The translations under genes and the position numbers were made by a program. From Dermatophagoides farinae (lineage: Eukaryota; Arthropoda; Arachnida; Sarcoptiformes; Pyroglyphidae): a DNA stretch of 64,000 nt. The first letter of the stretch is position 1; each line of letters opens with the position of its first letter. The stretch covers positions 3,620,001 to 3,684,000 of the forward strand of contig NC_134680.1 of assembly GCF_024713945.1 (NCBI RefSeq), written 5' to 3'. The notes beneath the pieces were generated by a model. It was not told the DNA's origin and searched no databases. It saw only the letters and a program-made list of their open reading frames with translations. Below are positions 1 to 8,800 of this stretch, in pieces.

Positions 1-3000
1 ACAAAGACTAAAGATGATGATCTTCTTCTTTTTTGAATTTTACAAAGGAAAGGTGACCTAACTATAGACTTCCAACGTGTTCATCATCATTGCACACACA
101 CACACACAGTTATCATATATGTGTGCCAGAATTTCTCCAATGTTCTCTCTCCCTTTTTCACTAGCATTTACTTTAGTTCATTCAAATTTTCTAGGTGAAA
201 AACACAAGCGCATTGAACGCTCGTATAAATATTTTGAAAATGAATGAGAGAATGTGGTGTGTATGTATGCAGGATCTAGGAATTGGGTTAAAATCCTCTA
301 TTCGACCAGAAAAAATTGAACGAACGAATGAATGAACAAACTTGCTCGGAATGAATGGCTCTCAATGAAATATAACGGTTTTCTTGTTGTTGTGTTTTCC
401 ATCTTCTTTTTCCTTTTCTTTTTCTTCTTTGGGTGGCCTATTTTTTTTTATTTGCTCTCTATAACTCATATGAACAGTGTTGACGAGAATCTCATCGTTT
501 TTCGTTTTTGTTCGTTGTCATCATAATTTGGTTGTAGTGGTCGGATTTTAGTAAATATTATTTTTATATTATTTAATTGCATAACAAGCTATATTTTCAT
601 TGAAGAGATAGATATTTTTGTATATGACTAACCAACCATCCAACCGAATAGGATGATGATGGCATAAATGATGGCCAACGACCGACAACCAAAAAAAGAA
701 AAGAAAGTCCGTCCTTGATCGATATTCGTTCATTCATCAATCAATTCATTTTAATCGAATTCATTATGAAAATCAAAAAGTTTCCATCCCCTTTCGCCTT
801 TTATTCGCTCGCGATATGAAGGCTGAGCTTTTGAATGAATGAATGATGATGATTATTATTATTATTATCATCATCACAATGCCTTCCACACCCTTTTCCT
901 CCAATCATTTTATCTACTGTTAATCTGACAAAAAAAAATCCAATGACATTCTTTTGAAAAAAAATTGTTTTGGATTATAATTAAATTCTAATTCTAATCA
1001 TAATTATTGCAATAAATATTTGGTGTTCATTCCTGTAACAAAAAAAGAATCAAGAATAGTTCTCTACAATTCCAGAATTGATCTAGTTTTTTTCCTATAT
1101 ATATATACATAGATTATGCGTATGCATCTTTGAGCTTTATAAGTATTTCAGCCGTTTCTGGAACAATCATTGTCATGAGAAATCGTAATGATTTTGACAA
1201 TAATTCAATAAGACTCCACAGAAACACAAAAGGCATTCATAATGTTTTTTTTTGCTGTTGAATTTCAATCAAATAAATTAATGAAATTTAGTTTTACACA
1301 CACATTTTAATTTTAGGCATCTTTAATTTATTCATTTAGTTGTTGGATTCTTATGTATCACACACACACGCATACACAAAATATTCCACACATACACTTT
1401 TGTTCTTTATTTTTGTTTACTTCATAACGACCATTTTGCTTCGCGCGATGCCCTGTATTCAGAAATTCACAAAAGATTCGTATTTTTTTCCTAGTCGTAG
1501 TGTCATTATGGCCAGCCAACAGTATTGTATGCCAATACCACACATATACACACTTTACCAACTTTCCAATTTTATATACCGATTTTTACAAAACGGGGTC
1601 ATTTGATGATGTCTCCGAAACGGATGGACATACGAAAATGAAAATTTCAGTAAATCTTAATCGTATTCTTAACTAGCTAAATCCAATCTTCATGACAAGA
1701 TGATAATGAAAATTGTTTCTATGATGATGATGACAATGTATAGATGATGAACAGAATAATTATTATGATGAAACCGAAATTGATGACGACGATGATACAC
1801 GCACTTCTATGGGAAATTAGCATAGGCAAATTTAGCACTGACTATGATGCCTAAAAACTGTTCGTGTGACCGGATGGGTCGTGTCAGAAAGTTGTCCGCT
1901 TGCTTATTTTATAATGATGAAAATGAAAATGATAATACTTTTAGATAAATTTCAATGTTAAAATCAAAATGGGTCATTTTATCCACAACCGTAGAAATAG
2001 TGTTAATATTCGTACAGATTCTGGATGTCTCTATTTGAGATGTAATATTTCTCTATGTTTGTTTGTTTGTAAACCAAAATGATGATGATGATGATGATAC
2101 GGTTCGCGCCGATGCAGCATCACTTATGACTTTTTTTGTTGTTGTTTTTGTTGCATTAAATTTCAATTTCATATGAATTCGACTTTTTGGCATGACCTAG
2201 TTTTTTCTGGGAATCTCGTCTCTTTTCTTTAGTTCTTGTGTGGCTCCCGTTTCATTTTTCTCGTCTTCTCTTGTAAAACACAATCGACAATGCCAGAGTC
2301 CAGAACGAATCACACACACACAAAATAACAAAACGAAAAACTAAACTGAACTGAACAACGACGAAATAAATAGAAAAATAGTAGCAGCCACTGTAGCTGC
2401 CATAATATTTGCGCCGGGCTATGAAAAGATGGTTATACTGCTGTTTATCATGAGTTGATTAGCCTTAACCATATCATGAATATATACAATTCGATCGTTT
2501 TCAGAATTTTTTTCTTACTATTCTATTTCATTGTATGGAAGTTTTAGTTCTACTCTTGAGATCCTTTCATAGATGTACAAAATGTATTTTATTAATCCAT
2601 GAACGTACAAACAAATTTGAGTAAACGAAACTTATATATGCGTGTGTGTTTGTGGATAAGGAACAAACAAAAAAAAACAAGACCATTATCAAAAAAAACA
2701 CAACAATCAACATCAAAATTTGATACACTAGAATCATCTAGAATTTCATTTTCAAGAATAAATGTCCAGAAAATTTATCTCTTCCCCTTATTATTTTTTT
2801 TTTTTTTGAAATTCCCATTTGTACTTGTACATTTTCTGTACGTATTTTTTTTCAGTCTAATCCACAAGTTTTATTATTTTATTTTATAAAGTTTCTTCTT
2901 TAAATGAAAACAAAAACTGGTTATGGATAACCTTGGATCGGTGATACAAAAAAAAGTGAACTGTACATTGAAAAAAAACAAACAAACAAAAACTACAAGA

Positions 3001-3131
3001 TGTGAAAGAGAAAGGAATAATTCTGGAATCATAGAATTATATAAACAAACAAACCAGAATGAAGATGAAATTCATCAAATTAACCGAAGATCGATTCGAC
3101 TTTTAAACAAAAAGAGAATATAAAATGGACA
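1..3131. other. AT-rich gene-free stretch
   Basis: I see no credible coding exon here. The open frames are short, low-complexity and match no family I know. The sequence is simple-repeat-rich: (AC)n near 91-108, (ATT/ATC)n near 845-885, (GAT)n near 2080-2098, and many A- and T-runs. It could be the distal 3' flank of the DYRK2 gene (minus strand, ending at 13656) or an intron of a gene outside the window. Confidence 0.6.
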
Positions 3132-3139
3132 GTTTAAAT
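3132..3139. repeat. hAT target-site duplication, left copy
   Basis: GTTTAAAT directly precedes the CAGGGG terminus and is repeated exactly at 5815-5822 after the CCCCTG terminus. The perfect match suggests a fairly recent insertion. Confidence 0.93.
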
Positions 3140-3283
3140 CAGGGGTCGGCAACCTGCGGCCCGCGGGCCGCATGCGGCCCATTACAACTTTTTGTGCGGC
3201 CCACCAAAGCACCAACATAATTTTAGGAAAAATATTAAATTAAAAAAATATTGTGTCGACAAATTTGCAACAATCAACATCAC

Positions 3284-4388
3284 AAATGACAAATCCAACC
3301 TAACACGATCAGTTCAGAGTTCAGAATCGAGAAAATGGCAAATCCCAACTAACACGACCAGTTCAGAATTCAAAATTCAAAATCATGAAAATGACAAGTC
3401 CAAACTAACACGATCAGTTCAGAATTCAAAATTCAAAATCGAGAAAATGGCAAATCCAAACTAACACGATCAGTTCAGAATCGAGAAAATGGCAAATCCA
3501 AACTAACACGACCAGTTCAGAATCGAGAAAATGGCAAATCCAAACTAACACGATCAGTTCAGAATCGAGAAAATGGCAAATCCAAACTAACACGACCAGT
3601 TCAGAATTCAAAATCAAGAAAATGACAAGACCAAACTAACACGACCAGTTTAGAATTCAAAATTCAAAATCGAGAAAATAACAAGTCCAGCCTAACACGA
3701 CCAGTTCAGAATCGTGAAAATGACAAGTCCAAACTAACACGATCAGTTCAGAATTCAAAATTCAAAATCGAGAAAATGGCAAATCCAAACTAACACGACC
3801 AGTTCAGAATCGAGAAAATGGCAAATCCATACTAACACGATCAGTTCAGAATCGAGAAAATGGCAAATCCATACTAACACGATCAGTTCAGAATCGAGAA
3901 AATGGCAAATCCAAACTAACACGACCAGTTCAGAATCGATAAAATCGCAAATCCAAACTAACACGATCAGTTCAGAATCGAGAAAATGGCAAATCCAAAC
4001 TAACACGATCAGTTCAGAATCGATAAAATGGCAAATCCAAACTAACACGATCAGTTCAGAATCGAGAAAATGGCAAATCCAAACTAACACGACCAGTTCA
4101 GAATTCAAAATTGAGAAAATAACAAGTCCAAACTAACACAACCAGTTCAGAATCGAGAAAATAACAAATCCAAACTAACACGACCAGTTCAGAATTCAAA
4201 ATTCAAAATCAAAAAAATGGCAAGTCCAAACTAACACGACCAGTTCAGAATCGAGAAAATGGCAAATCCATACTAACATGATCAGTTCAGAATCGAGAAA
4301 ATAACAAGTCCAAACTAACACGGCCAGTTCAGAATTCAAAATTGAAAATCGAGAAAATAACAAGTCCAGCCTAACACGACCAGTTCAG
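3284..4388 (+). repeat. Left minisatellite arm, mostly 42-bp units
   Basis: About 25 tandem units run through this arm, each recognisable by CTAACACGACCAGTTCAGAA followed by a GAGAAAATGGCAA-type segment. The basic unit is 42 bp; longer units arise by adding one or two 7-bp ATTCAAA-type blocks after GAATTC. Because 42 is a multiple of three and the units lack stops on the minus strand, they create spurious open frames with a 14-residue period. The arm is the inverted counterpart of 4691-5617. Confidence 0.93.
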
Positions 4389-4690
4389 ATGGTTAGTTAT
4401 TCTAGTTACCAGAATTGGTTGGTTTCGATACCGTTTTTTAGATTTATTAAAAATTATTTTCAATGATGAATTCTGTTTTCCAGGATTCAGAGTTAAATAA
4501 TGTTTGTTACATTTAATTAATTCGATATGTATCCAATGTTCTGCCATTGAAGATGGAAATATTTATTTTCAGAATATGTTGTTGTAATTTTCCACACAAT
4601 GAATAACATTAACAAATGATCATCAAAAAAAATTTTATCTGATTCGAAAAAATGTTGTAAAAGTCGATAATAATTCAAATTCAGTTTGGT
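4389..4690. other. Unique loop between the inverted arms
   Basis: About 300 bp of non-repetitive AT-rich sequence separates the two opposed minisatellite arms. No open frame or transposase remnant is recognisable. It would form the loop of a hairpin if the element were transcribed or became single-stranded. Confidence 0.8.
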
Positions 4691-5617
4691 TCAGTTTGGA
4701 CTTTTGAATTTTGAATTTTGAACTGGTCATGTTAGTTTGGACTTGTTATTTTCTCGATTCTGAACTGGCCGTGTTAATTTGGACTTGTTATTTTCTCGAT
4801 TCTGAACTGGTCATTTTAGTTGGAACTTGTTATTTTCTCGATTCTGAACTGGCCGTGTTAGTTTGGATTTGTCATTTTCTCGATTCTGAACTGGTCGTGT
4901 TAGGTTGGATTTGTTGTTTTCTCGATTCTGAACTGGTCGTGTTAGTTTGGACTTGTTATTTTCTCAATTTTGAATTCTGAATTGGTCGTGTTAGGTTGGA
5001 TTTGTTGTTTTCTCGATTCTGAACTGGTCGTGTTAGTTTGGACTTGTTATTTTCTCAATTTTGAATTCTGAATTGGTCGTGTTAGGTTGGATTTGTTGTT
5101 TTCTCGATTCTGAACTGGTCGTGTTAGTTTGGACTTGTTATTTTCTCAATTTTGAATTCTGAATTGGTCGTGTTAGGTTGGATTTGTCATTTTCTCGATT
5201 CTGAACTGGTCGTGTTAGTTTGGACTTGTTATTTTCTCAATTTTGAATTCTGAATTGGTCGTGTTAGGTTGGATTTGTTGTTTTCTCGATTCTGAACTGG
5301 TCGTGTTAGTATGGATTTGTTATTTTCTGGATTTTGAATTTTGAATTCTGAATTGGTCGTGTTAGGTTGGATTTGTTGTTTTCTCGATTCTGAACTGGTC
5401 GTGTTAGTTTGGACTTGTTATTTTCTCGATTTTGAATTTTGAATTCTGAACTGGTCGTGTTAGGTTGGATTTGTTGTTTTCTCGATTCTGAACTGGTCGT
5501 GTTAGTTTGGACTTGTTATTTTCTCAATTTTGAATTCTGAATTGGTCGTGTTAGGTTGGATTTGTCATTTTCTCGATTCTGAACTGGTCGTGTTAGTTTG
5601 GACATTTGCCATTTTCG
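4691..5617 (-). repeat. Right minisatellite arm, inverted, 91/98-bp higher-order units
   Basis: These are the same units as the left arm in reverse orientation (GAACTGGTCGTGTTAGTTTG blocks). A 49-bp unit and a 42-bp unit alternate, so unit starts recur at 4979, 5070, 5161, 5252, 5350, 5448 and 5539. The period is 91 bp, or 98 bp when an extra 7-bp TTTTGAA block is present. This higher-order pattern is absent from the left arm, which suggests separate expansion after the inverted arrangement arose. Confidence 0.92.
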
Positions 5618-5814
5618 AATGAAATTTTATTGTGACACGTTACATATTTAAATAGGAATTTTTATGAATTTGTGGCACGGACATCAAAAAAAGTTTGCCA
5701 TCCCTGTCGTATATGATATAAAAGCACTATTTAAGTTATATTTGAATGTGCGGCCCACATAAAAAATTTTATTTTGAAAATGGCCCGCTGTCCGAAAAAG
5801 GTTGCCGACCCCTG

Positions 5815-5822
5815 GTTTAAAT
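5815..5822. repeat. hAT target-site duplication, right copy
   Basis: GTTTAAAT directly follows the CCCCTG terminus and is identical to 3132-3139. Confidence 0.93.
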
Positions 5823-8800
5823 AATTATCCGACACACTTGAACAAACAAAATAATTTCTTTTTCTTCAAAACTTTTTTGCCGTTTTTACTGGCCATAAGC
5901 CTCAAATGAGAAGAAAAAAACAACAAATCGACACAATATCCACAAAAAAAACAATTAAATTGCAAATTTCCCATTATTCCCAACACAATTTTTTTTTGAT
6001 TTCATCAAATGAAATCAGTAGCACCATAACATAATATGAAAAATAGGAAAAAGGAAAAAAACTAAATCAAATGAGCAAAGAGAAAAATAACGGCTTTCAA
6101 GGACAATTAGATACATATTATATATGTAATATGTAAACTAGAACTAACTTATAATAATAAAATTGAAATTCCTGTATTTGTTTGTTTTGATGGTGAATGT
6201 AGTAGTCAAACAGAGAAAAAATAAAGAAAATTTCATCCCCAATGATGATGATTTCGATATTTATATCTACGAATTAAATTATGAATTTATATTATCATCA
6301 CAAAAATGAATCAATGGATGATTTTATTTTTATTTTAGTTTATGTATTCAATCGACGATATATGTTCATAATTCGATCTATAGCAAAGAAAAAAAAACGA
6401 AAATCCGATCAATTCATTCTATTATTAGATTATATCTCATTACATTATTTTTAATTGGATGATGAAATTCATTCATTCCAATGATGAGTTTGCCACGCCC
6501 TTGTTCGCTTGCTTTATAATTTTTATTTGATTTTTTTTTTATTTGGTTTGGTTTGATTTTCTTGTTCATAACATCAATATCATATAATAATCATTTTTGT
6601 TTTGAAGTTTACATTATCATCATCATCATCATGATCACAAGAATATCATGTTAAATAACAAATTCTTTCATTTAAATTAAATCTGCAAAAAATTTTGCAC
6701 AATTAACTAAATTTTAATAAGAATTTGTTGTTGTATTTTTATAAAATTTTTTTCCATTCATTCATTCATTCATATGAATAGTTTGCATGATGAGGTTTTG
6801 TGGTTATAAGAATGATGATAGTGTTTGTATCATATCAATTCATATTAACAAATTTGATATTATCCATATGGTTTTTTTTGTTTCTTCTTTTCTGGTTGTT
6901 ATATATTTGGATACACACACACAGAGAGAGAGAGAGACCTTCTATGAATATTGGAAAAGAAAATTTGAAAAATATTCGACCCGAATCCACACAGAAAAAC
7001 ACAAGAGATCATTTCGAATTGTAAACAAAAAAAAAACCCAAAAAAAAGACAAGACATATAATTGACAGTTGAATATTTTTCTATGCTTTGATCATTTGTT
7101 TCTTCATTTTCTTGATGAAAAAGAAAACCAGATCAACAATTATATGTTCATAATCAAACTACTGCTACTACTATATAACGTCATAATAAACCATCAAATA
7201 TTCATCAAAAAAAAGAGAATAAGAATAAGTCCTAGATTGATGTTAAGCAACATCGACAAGTATAGACAATAACAGCAACATAGATTTAATATTTAAATTG
7301 AATTTTAATCAAACAGAATTCTGTTCTGTATAACGTTGAAAGACGTACAGAAAAAAAAATTAACAATACAAATTCATTTTATTAATCATCAATTATGATG
7401 AACCATTATGTGTGACAATAGTAATACTATACTCGAAATAATGACAATAAAGTAATTCATTGATGATAATTCTTTTGTTGAAACAAGCAAAACAAAACAA
7501 AACAAAAAAAAAAGAATTTGATACTAAAATTTTGTGTGAAAAACGATTCTACTGACAAAAATGTAACAATGTAATTTGCATGTAGTGTGTAATTAATTTT
7601 CCTTGAAGATTTCCATCAATAAACACAGACAACAACAGTGAAAAAAAAGATGAAACCTGAATCAACATGAACAAGAACAAAGGTTATTTCATTATCATCA
7701 ACAACGACATCATAAAAGGATTCTTGCTTTTCGAAAGAATCATAAATGCTGAAAAAGCAAAAAAAAATACTAAAGTATAAAACTTTGGCAAAATTTAGCC
7801 AAAAATAATTTCAAATGTACTCAACAGACGAAGATTGAGCCAGAGAAAAAATTGTTTCCAATTAAATTAATCCAACAAAAAAAATTAGCTAAATTCAATC
7901 CATTCACATGATTTTTGTGTTTAATTTTTGATGATCTTGATATTGCTGCAAACACACACACACACACACATAGATTCGAATCTTGCTTATCAACACTGGC
8001 AAGTTTTCTGTATATACAGAAATCCAGAAATTCACAAATATTAACCCGACAGATTTATATATTTTTTTCCCGACAATTTATTTAATGAATTTACATTCAA
8101 TTAAACTACAATTTTACTTTCATTGTTAATTTTTTTAGGTTATAATTTTTTACATGTCAAAAATCAAGATCTGGTGTAATTCTATTTTGTTTCACATTAG
8201 CTGACAATGATTATTTTTTTTCTGGTAGATGAATAAATAAGAAATGATGAAAACCGTTTTTTCTTTCCTTATTTCTCATTTTTTTGAGCTAAAATTAGAT
8301 CAATTTTGTTGAAAAACTATTTATGCCTGTTGAACATATATATTATAACAAATAAATGCATAATACTTGCTAAAATCAAAATCAAACCAATCAAAAAATC
8401 ATTGAAATTTCAATGATAATGGTGAGGCCTTGAATTTCAATTCTGGTACTATATCATATACAGAATGCAGAACCACAAAACAAATAGAAACAAACAAACA
8501 AAAAAAAAACAAAAACAGAAAAAAATGAAAACGAAAACCAAAAACACTGCCAAATGTAAAAAACAACGCCCCCATATTTGAAAATCAAACGGAAAATGAT
8601 GATCCATTATAAATAAATAAATACAAATAAATTTGTTGGCAATGGAAATTTTAAATTTTTTTTTGCCAAAAAAATAATAATAATCTTTTTCTCTTTTTCA
8701 TTGCCATACAAACGAAATGAATGCTCGTGCGTGCCTACATGATGATCATTCGATTGATCAATTGATCGATTGTTTATGGATTCGATTCAAATCAAATTGA

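Follow-up and report, generated by a model that had tools for sequence, protein, structure and literature searches.

A minisatellite foldback module in a recently mobile hAT family and in other transposons of Dermatophagoides farinae

The foldback elements FB of Drosophila and TU of the sea urchin have a loop flanked by inverted arms that are made up of short tandem repeats. Their arms reach the element ends or nearly so, and the extension of the arrays to the ends as long TIRs is a foldback trait. Foldbacks are usually placed in one transposon lineage, and their repeats are thought to serve the transposase of that lineage. The hAT MITEs and the elements with Charlie/Buster-type hAT ends have short TIRs starting with CAG and 8-bp target-site duplications (TSDs); a central TA in the TSD is the rule of the Buster-type subtype. 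The TSDs of the Mutator superfamily are 9-11 bp long, and the P superfamily, which includes Galileo, has a THAP-domain transposase. Foldbacks of D. melanogaster and of the sea urchin are mentioned in the covered parts of the report on Tetris, an element of Drosophila virilis (PMC4079207). For the structural variants of Galileo, gap repair with template switching has been invoked in the covered parts of PMC4168063.

The genome of D. farinae searched here comprises 62,435,336 bases on 22 contigs. The window, which is the whole stretch of 64,000 nucleotides analysed, corresponds to C4:3620001-3684000. Positions 3140-5814 of the window form a complete non-autonomous hAT element of 2675 bp (Table 1), the family of which is called hAT-1. 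The 16-bp TIR and the perfect 8-bp TSD that a sequence-only reading had claimed were found on both sides. At the window composition, two 8-mers would match by chance with a probability of about 5e-5. Beyond the 16 bp the two ends are dissimilar (17/24 and 49/100 positions alike, ungapped), and about 140-145 bp of non-array sequence on the left and about 200 bp on the right precede the arrays. A scan of 2900-6100 against Rfam gave no match inside 3140-5814; two matches (E 0.25 and 0.63) lay outside the element, far under the gathering scores, and were attributed to chance. The arrays contain two open frames (132 and 125 aa), which were rejected as genes, since they are translations of the repeats. 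A second, nested hAT-like end (minus strand, outer base 5706; given as CAGGGATGGCAAACTT and as CAGGGATGGCRAACYT) lies inside the right subterminal region, about 108 bp inward of the hAT-1 right end, in the window and at the corresponding place in other hAT-1 copies. A similar end occurs near C2:3929990; the arrangement looks like the addition of one element end to a second.

Table 1. Parts of the hAT-1 element in the window (positions are those of the window).
Feature	Position	Strand	Remark
Left target-site duplication GTTTAAAT	3132..3139	.	Identical to 5815-5822
Left 16-bp TIR CAGGGGTCGGCAACCT	3140..3155	+	21 exact and 8 one-mismatch genome matches
Left subterminal region: GCGGCCCGCGGGCC palindrome, AT-rich after	3156..3283	+	
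Left array, 24 core-motif units, mainly 42/49/56 bp	3284..4389	+	
Loop A, ~0.3 kb, internal repeat none seen	4390..4692	+	
Right array, 20 core-motif units, partly 91-bp (42+49) higher-order repeat	4693..5622	-	
Right subterminal region	5623..5798	+	
Right 16-bp TIR, reverse complement of CAGGGGTCGGCAACCT	5799..5814	-	
Right target-site duplication GTTTAAAT	5815..5822	.	

Most of the element consists of two opposed arrays of the same unit. By the core motif, plus-strand units span 3300-4390 in the left arm and minus-strand units 4716-5596 in the right arm; the limits read from the sequence itself are approximate (Table 1). The periods found by TRF in these arrays include 42, 56, 84, and 91, and the longest inverted pairs reach 285 nt at 89% identity. 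Unit counts, TRF, and inverted pairs agree with the earlier description of opposed 42/49/56-bp arrays around a 0.3-kb loop. The long imperfect hairpin of that description was also recovered as a predicted fold. The folding energy of the element was -1500 kcal/mol, whereas 8 dinucleotide shuffles averaged -614 (sd 11). It was -587 kcal/mol with the right arm reversed and -348 kcal/mol with the right arm in direct orientation. In the minimum-energy fold, 835 of the 1108 left-arm bases paired with the right arm. The opposed-array foldback is not due to chance.

The 16-bp TIR gave 29 genome matches at no more than one mismatch, and its reversed control gave none. The accounting of copies covers the 21 exact matches. 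Twelve matches are the ends of six hAT-1 copies in which both TIRs are exact. All six are flanked by perfect 8-bp TSDs, each different. A seventh two-ended copy, C10:382216-383913, has a diverged right end (2 mismatches) and flanks that agree at 6/8 positions. Ends with no second exact TIR nearby were found at C10:382216, C4:1247286, C4:1358271, C7:1407863, and C3:7167740. The same 16 bp is joined to different subterminal sequence at C5:4429517, at C6:1128605, and twice at C8. The C8 pair bounds an array-free stretch of 408 bp (C8:4424094-4424501), with the TSD GGCTAGTT read by eye. This stretch and C6:1128605, also array-free, both have a GAGCCGC subterminal region; perhaps the transposase of hAT-1 moved both.

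Empty sites were searched with the joined flanks of nine insertions (six hAT-1 and three hAT-2), and filled-versus-empty pairs were clear for two of them. The joined flanks of C5:5345046-5347244 matched 132/132 at C4:6147907-6148038, which has a single target copy, and at two further places at 98-99%. For C4:3735748-3738103, three places matched the joined flanks at 91%, and the target is present once in each. One hAT-2 insertion gave a weak match of 73% across the joined flanks, and for six of the nine this genome search found no empty site. Between copies, the hAT-1 ends share 97-100% identity at aligned bases. C4:3735748 and C4:6572514 are the same at 1611/1611 aligned bases, with three gaps of 301, 297, and 147. 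Identity is 96.9% between the window copy and C5:5345046, the nine gaps of which are all multiples of 7 and reach 273. The remaining copy pairs share only 81-95% identity over the whole element, because the arrays and loops differ. hAT-1 is a small, recently mobile family that inserts precisely with 8-bp duplications, and the ends, TSDs, and empty sites identify hAT-type cut-and-paste insertion. The sequence-only reading had asked whether the element was a family or a single oddity. It is a family, with six exact copies and a seventh diverged one. Dispersed copies with opposed arrays and different TSDs, which had been proposed as a check, were present in all six exact-TIR cases and were joined by two empty sites. 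The opposite expectation, that the ends would occur only here and never with 8-bp duplications elsewhere, is contradicted by the same dispersed copies.

In the proposed mechanism, a hAT transposase encoded elsewhere would recognise the short ends of hAT-1 and move the element in trans. A genome search with PF05699 identified five hAT dimerisation matches. In 3.2 kb around each match (7.5 kb for C3), only the surroundings of the C2 match contained an end that differs from the hAT-1 TIR at no more than 5 positions, and this end reads CAGGGGTGGCCAAGCT. The frame at C2:3118373 has hAT and BED-type matches, but its end is CAGGGGTGGCCAAGC; it is therefore counted as a relative and not as a shown mobiliser. 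The C2 frame ending at 3120193, with the downstream end CAGGGGTGGCCAAGC, is uninterrupted over 623 aa, has Dimer_Tnp_hAT, zf-C2H2_12, and zf-BED matches in a 590-aa part, and is possibly an active autonomous hAT of another family. A PDB search with the 590-aa part gave no relative at E 0.001. The transposase beside an array at C3:6740117-6742143 was also rejected, as no hAT-1-like end was found in C3:6737400-6744914, which is a patchwork region. A 977-aa open frame at C9:2534842-2537994, which matches the hAT dimerisation domain and has long runs rich in Asn and Asp, may represent a domesticated hAT gene.

The sole mobiliser lead found is C3:7167740 (minus strand), where the hAT-1 left TIR occurs with a fragmentary transposase. 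The match covers positions 1-23 (23/23) and 34-94 (93% over 61 bp) of the hAT-1 element. Two ORFs of 130 and 105 aa are present, the first with a zf-C2H2_12 match (8.1e-9). A dimerisation domain and a second end were not found at this locus, and the array is absent within the stretch compared. A genome search with its 129-aa fragment returned the locus itself, C2:3118373 (41%), C4:35192 (88%, short), and C3:6740219 (weak), and no intact transposase with hAT-1 ends. Of the hAT transposase with the same ends that had been proposed as the identifying hit, only this fragment with a left end was found.

The arrays are not confined to hAT-1. The exact 21-base unit core gave 350 genome matches (181 forward and 169 reverse), whereas controls gave 0, and further array carriers were traced from those of the matches listed. 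The ends of hAT-2 (CAGTSATTCTCAACC) have 107 genome matches at no more than one mismatch. Among the matches listed, at least 12 hAT-2 TIR pairs enclose arrays, and perfect, different TSDs flank 11 of 12 array-bearing copies, the exception being C7:934430-937410. Short hAT-2 end pairs, 65-160 bp apart, are also present. A third family, hAT-5, has the ends CAGGGCCGGCCC and a 48-base loop with 12 exact genome matches. Both ends were read in two of the 12, C1:1098251-1100567 and C1:4870232-4872412, with the perfect TSDs GTGTTTGT and GTCGGTGG; between these two copies, the aligned bases of the ends are identical (1199/1199) apart from 2 gap positions. At C1:1098963-1099172 in hAT-5, a 69-aa open frame runs into the array and is possibly a captured gene piece. 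A Tc1-like family on C2 and C5 has TA flanks in all three two-ended copies. Its ends are inverted over 440 bp (439-440 of 440) and continue into the arrays; a seventh end match, C3:6726814, is solitary. A pogo-like element occurs as a single copy at C5:1632707-1634212, with TA flanks and ends alike at 22/24 positions. The labels Tc1-like and pogo-like refer to ends and TA flanks only. The minisatellite interior is common to the hAT-1, hAT-2, hAT-5, Tc1-like, and pogo-like elements, the ends of which are quite different. The remodelling described earlier is not peculiar to hAT-1, as the same module occurs in other hAT families and in elements of Tc1/mariner type. Two further stretches, C4:5759148-5760248 and C4:3743300-3744400, are oppositely oriented and share 99.9% identity along 1101 bp; they contain a small foldback in which the loop is a third one, and the repeat runs to the edge of the stretches examined.

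The loops are also shared between families. Loop A gave 24 genome matches, some of which are two pieces of one locus, and 21 candidates were scored. Ten of the 24 are 166-bp versions within hAT-2 copies; the others belong to hAT-1, Tc1-like, and pogo-like elements and to chimeric loci. A second loop, B, is present in other hAT-1 copies. Sequence of loop B was seen by eye near C2:3928204 and C3:6742430, which are chimeric loci, and there it does not lie between arrays. In a tree of 15 aligned loops with few variable sites, two Tc1-type loops of C5 and the hAT-1 loops form one group with a support of 0.995; the node at which the window loop joins the C5 loops has a support of 0.105. The loop of the Tc1-like copy C2:4712390 falls outside the hAT-1 loop group. 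This copy and C5:4504974 have Tc1-like ends identical at 437/440 positions on each side, and their loops are in different groups. The region C2:3927200-3930000 combines loop A, loop B sequence, a loop-C array, and at least two hAT end pieces in 2.8 kb, and is a candidate hub for exchange between families.

In 22 array-bearing stretches (of the six from hAT-5, four were partial), 421 units were compared and 171 proved distinct; 7 of these occur in two or more families, and 164 are private to one. Since the sharing of the module, the units have become homogenised within each family, and with 164 of 171 private, transfers are few or old relative to local homogenisation. Only 0-2 identical units are common to the two arms of one element; therefore, the arms evolve apart. 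At the module edges of the 10 loci tabulated, the sequence and the unit phase differ, and no duplication was found there by eye.

These results probably reflect separately mobilised non-autonomous elements with a common foldback module, which has been passed between families, with template switching during repair as the probable route. A break or gap in one element would be repaired from another array-bearing element, with template switching within the repeats, and the array length might then be altered by unit slippage and unequal exchange. Edges at varied unit phases, mixed loops, and nested ends would fit template switching better than a module with fixed ends. It is unlikely that the array-loop-array module is a mobile foldback element in its own right, which entered every carrier by a separate insertion and now travels with it. 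One module and the same loop are found in several carriers, and the Tc1-like arrays continue the long inverted ends symmetrically, as such insertion might produce; however, the varied edges at the 10 loci, where no duplication was seen by eye, and the variation of loops among copies of one family argue against it. Each carrier is probably mobilised by its own transposase, as suggested by ends and TSDs, and the arrays would then be cargo rather than family-specific transposase-binding sites. The proposal that the arrays are such binding sites, expanded for better mobility, seems quite improbable. It draws on Galileo, for which the tandem repeats of the TIRs are stated, in the covered parts of PMC4079207, to carry extra transposase-binding sites, and on the recent mobility of the array-bearing elements. 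Against it, the same units occur with unrelated ends of hAT (8 bp) and Tc1/mariner (TA) type, the hAT-1 left end with transposase remnants at C3:7167740 is array-free in the stretch compared, and array length varies widely among copies with near-identical ends. Tandem inverted arrays are also hard to assemble, and collapsed or mis-joined repeats could mimic such a structure. The six copies have nearly the same ends but differ in TSD and in array length, which makes array collapse unlikely, and two empty sites exist. Arrays of about 1 kb in an assembly built from PacBio and Hi-C data, as stated in the covered part of PMC11074847, also speak against an artefact, which is hardly credible.

The hairpin itself might have a role. 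According to the covered parts of PMC5805368, D. farinae lacks Piwi proteins and piRNAs, and its transposons are controlled by Dicer-made siRNAs from dsRNA master loci. An element that is read through would give a kilobase hairpin, which is predicted to be a natural Dicer substrate. On this basis, the foldback could be a hairpin-RNA locus that is selected or tolerated as its siRNAs influence transposon control, and the long hairpin predicted for the window element would agree with this. This model is rather unlikely: the hAT-1 transposase fragment is array-free in the stretch compared, so that siRNAs from the array would not obviously hit it, and the words "hairpin" and "foldback" are absent from the main text of PMC5805368. 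A broader and speculative possibility is that the inverted minisatellite is a selfish cassette, which parasitises transposons across superfamilies and spreads by break repair independently of any one transposase, and the hairpin transcripts of which, in an animal without piRNAs, feed or load the Dicer pathway by which its carriers are policed.

One inverted minisatellite occupies three hAT families and two Tc1/mariner-type kinds of element (one represented by a single copy), among which near-identical copies have moved recently. Both the passage of sequence between unrelated transposons and the role of the arrays in mobility become testable in one small genome. This genome also has many potential long hairpins, and the mite is reported to depend on Dicer-made siRNAs for transposon control. 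For the assembly GCA_024713945.1, the published annotation lists, in the covered part of PMC11074847, 736 DNA transposons with a total of 55,004 bp. The 18 hAT-1 and hAT-2 copies sum to 39,029 bp; set against that total, this group may be largely unannotated.

In a literature search, mostly of open-access papers by titles and abstract openings, neither a hAT foldback nor a minisatellite common to several transposon superfamilies was reported; house dust mite hAT papers were not found in the open-access literature. By structure, hAT-1 behaves as a foldback, and its ends and TSDs place it in the hAT superfamily. Short TIRs starting with CAG are exact over 16 bp at both ends of six hAT-1 copies, and 8-bp TSDs are perfect in 6/7 two-ended hAT-1 and 11/12 hAT-2 copies. 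TA occupies TSD positions 4-5 in 6/6 hAT-1, 11/11 perfect hAT-2, and 0/2 hAT-5 copies, so that hAT-1 and hAT-2 resemble the Charlie/Buster type in all 17 perfect TSDs. The 8-bp TSDs of the six exact-TIR hAT-1 copies fall outside the Mutator range. The interior differs from that of hAT MITEs, as it is an opposed minisatellite and not a deletion derivative or unique filler. Inverted tandem-repeat arms around a loop are shared with foldbacks. The arrays of hAT-1 stop about 140 bp (left) and about 200 bp (right) short of the ends, in contrast to FB and TU, and hAT-1 therefore misses one foldback trait; the Tc1-like carriers have long TIRs that run into the arrays.

Tetris is similar in several respects in the covered parts of PMC4079207: it is a non-autonomous foldback without coding capacity, with a variable middle, inverted arms of tandem repeats in variable number, and TSDs of 8-9 bp in three complete copies, like the 8 bp of hAT-1. 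It differs in its unit of about 220 bp, its TIRs of up to 1,735 bp, its three complete copies, and the Mutator superfamily suggested by its authors (TSDs 8-10 bp); the occurrence of its repeat in unrelated transposon families is undescribed in those parts. In the covered parts of PMC4168063, Galileo is likewise foldback-like, with shifts of TIR length by direct tandem repeats and TSDs of 7-8 bp. It differs in its P-superfamily transposase, and in D. willistoni one copy only has direct tandem repeats, of about 140 bp. The interior of hAT-1, by comparison, consists almost entirely of array, and its ends are of hAT type.
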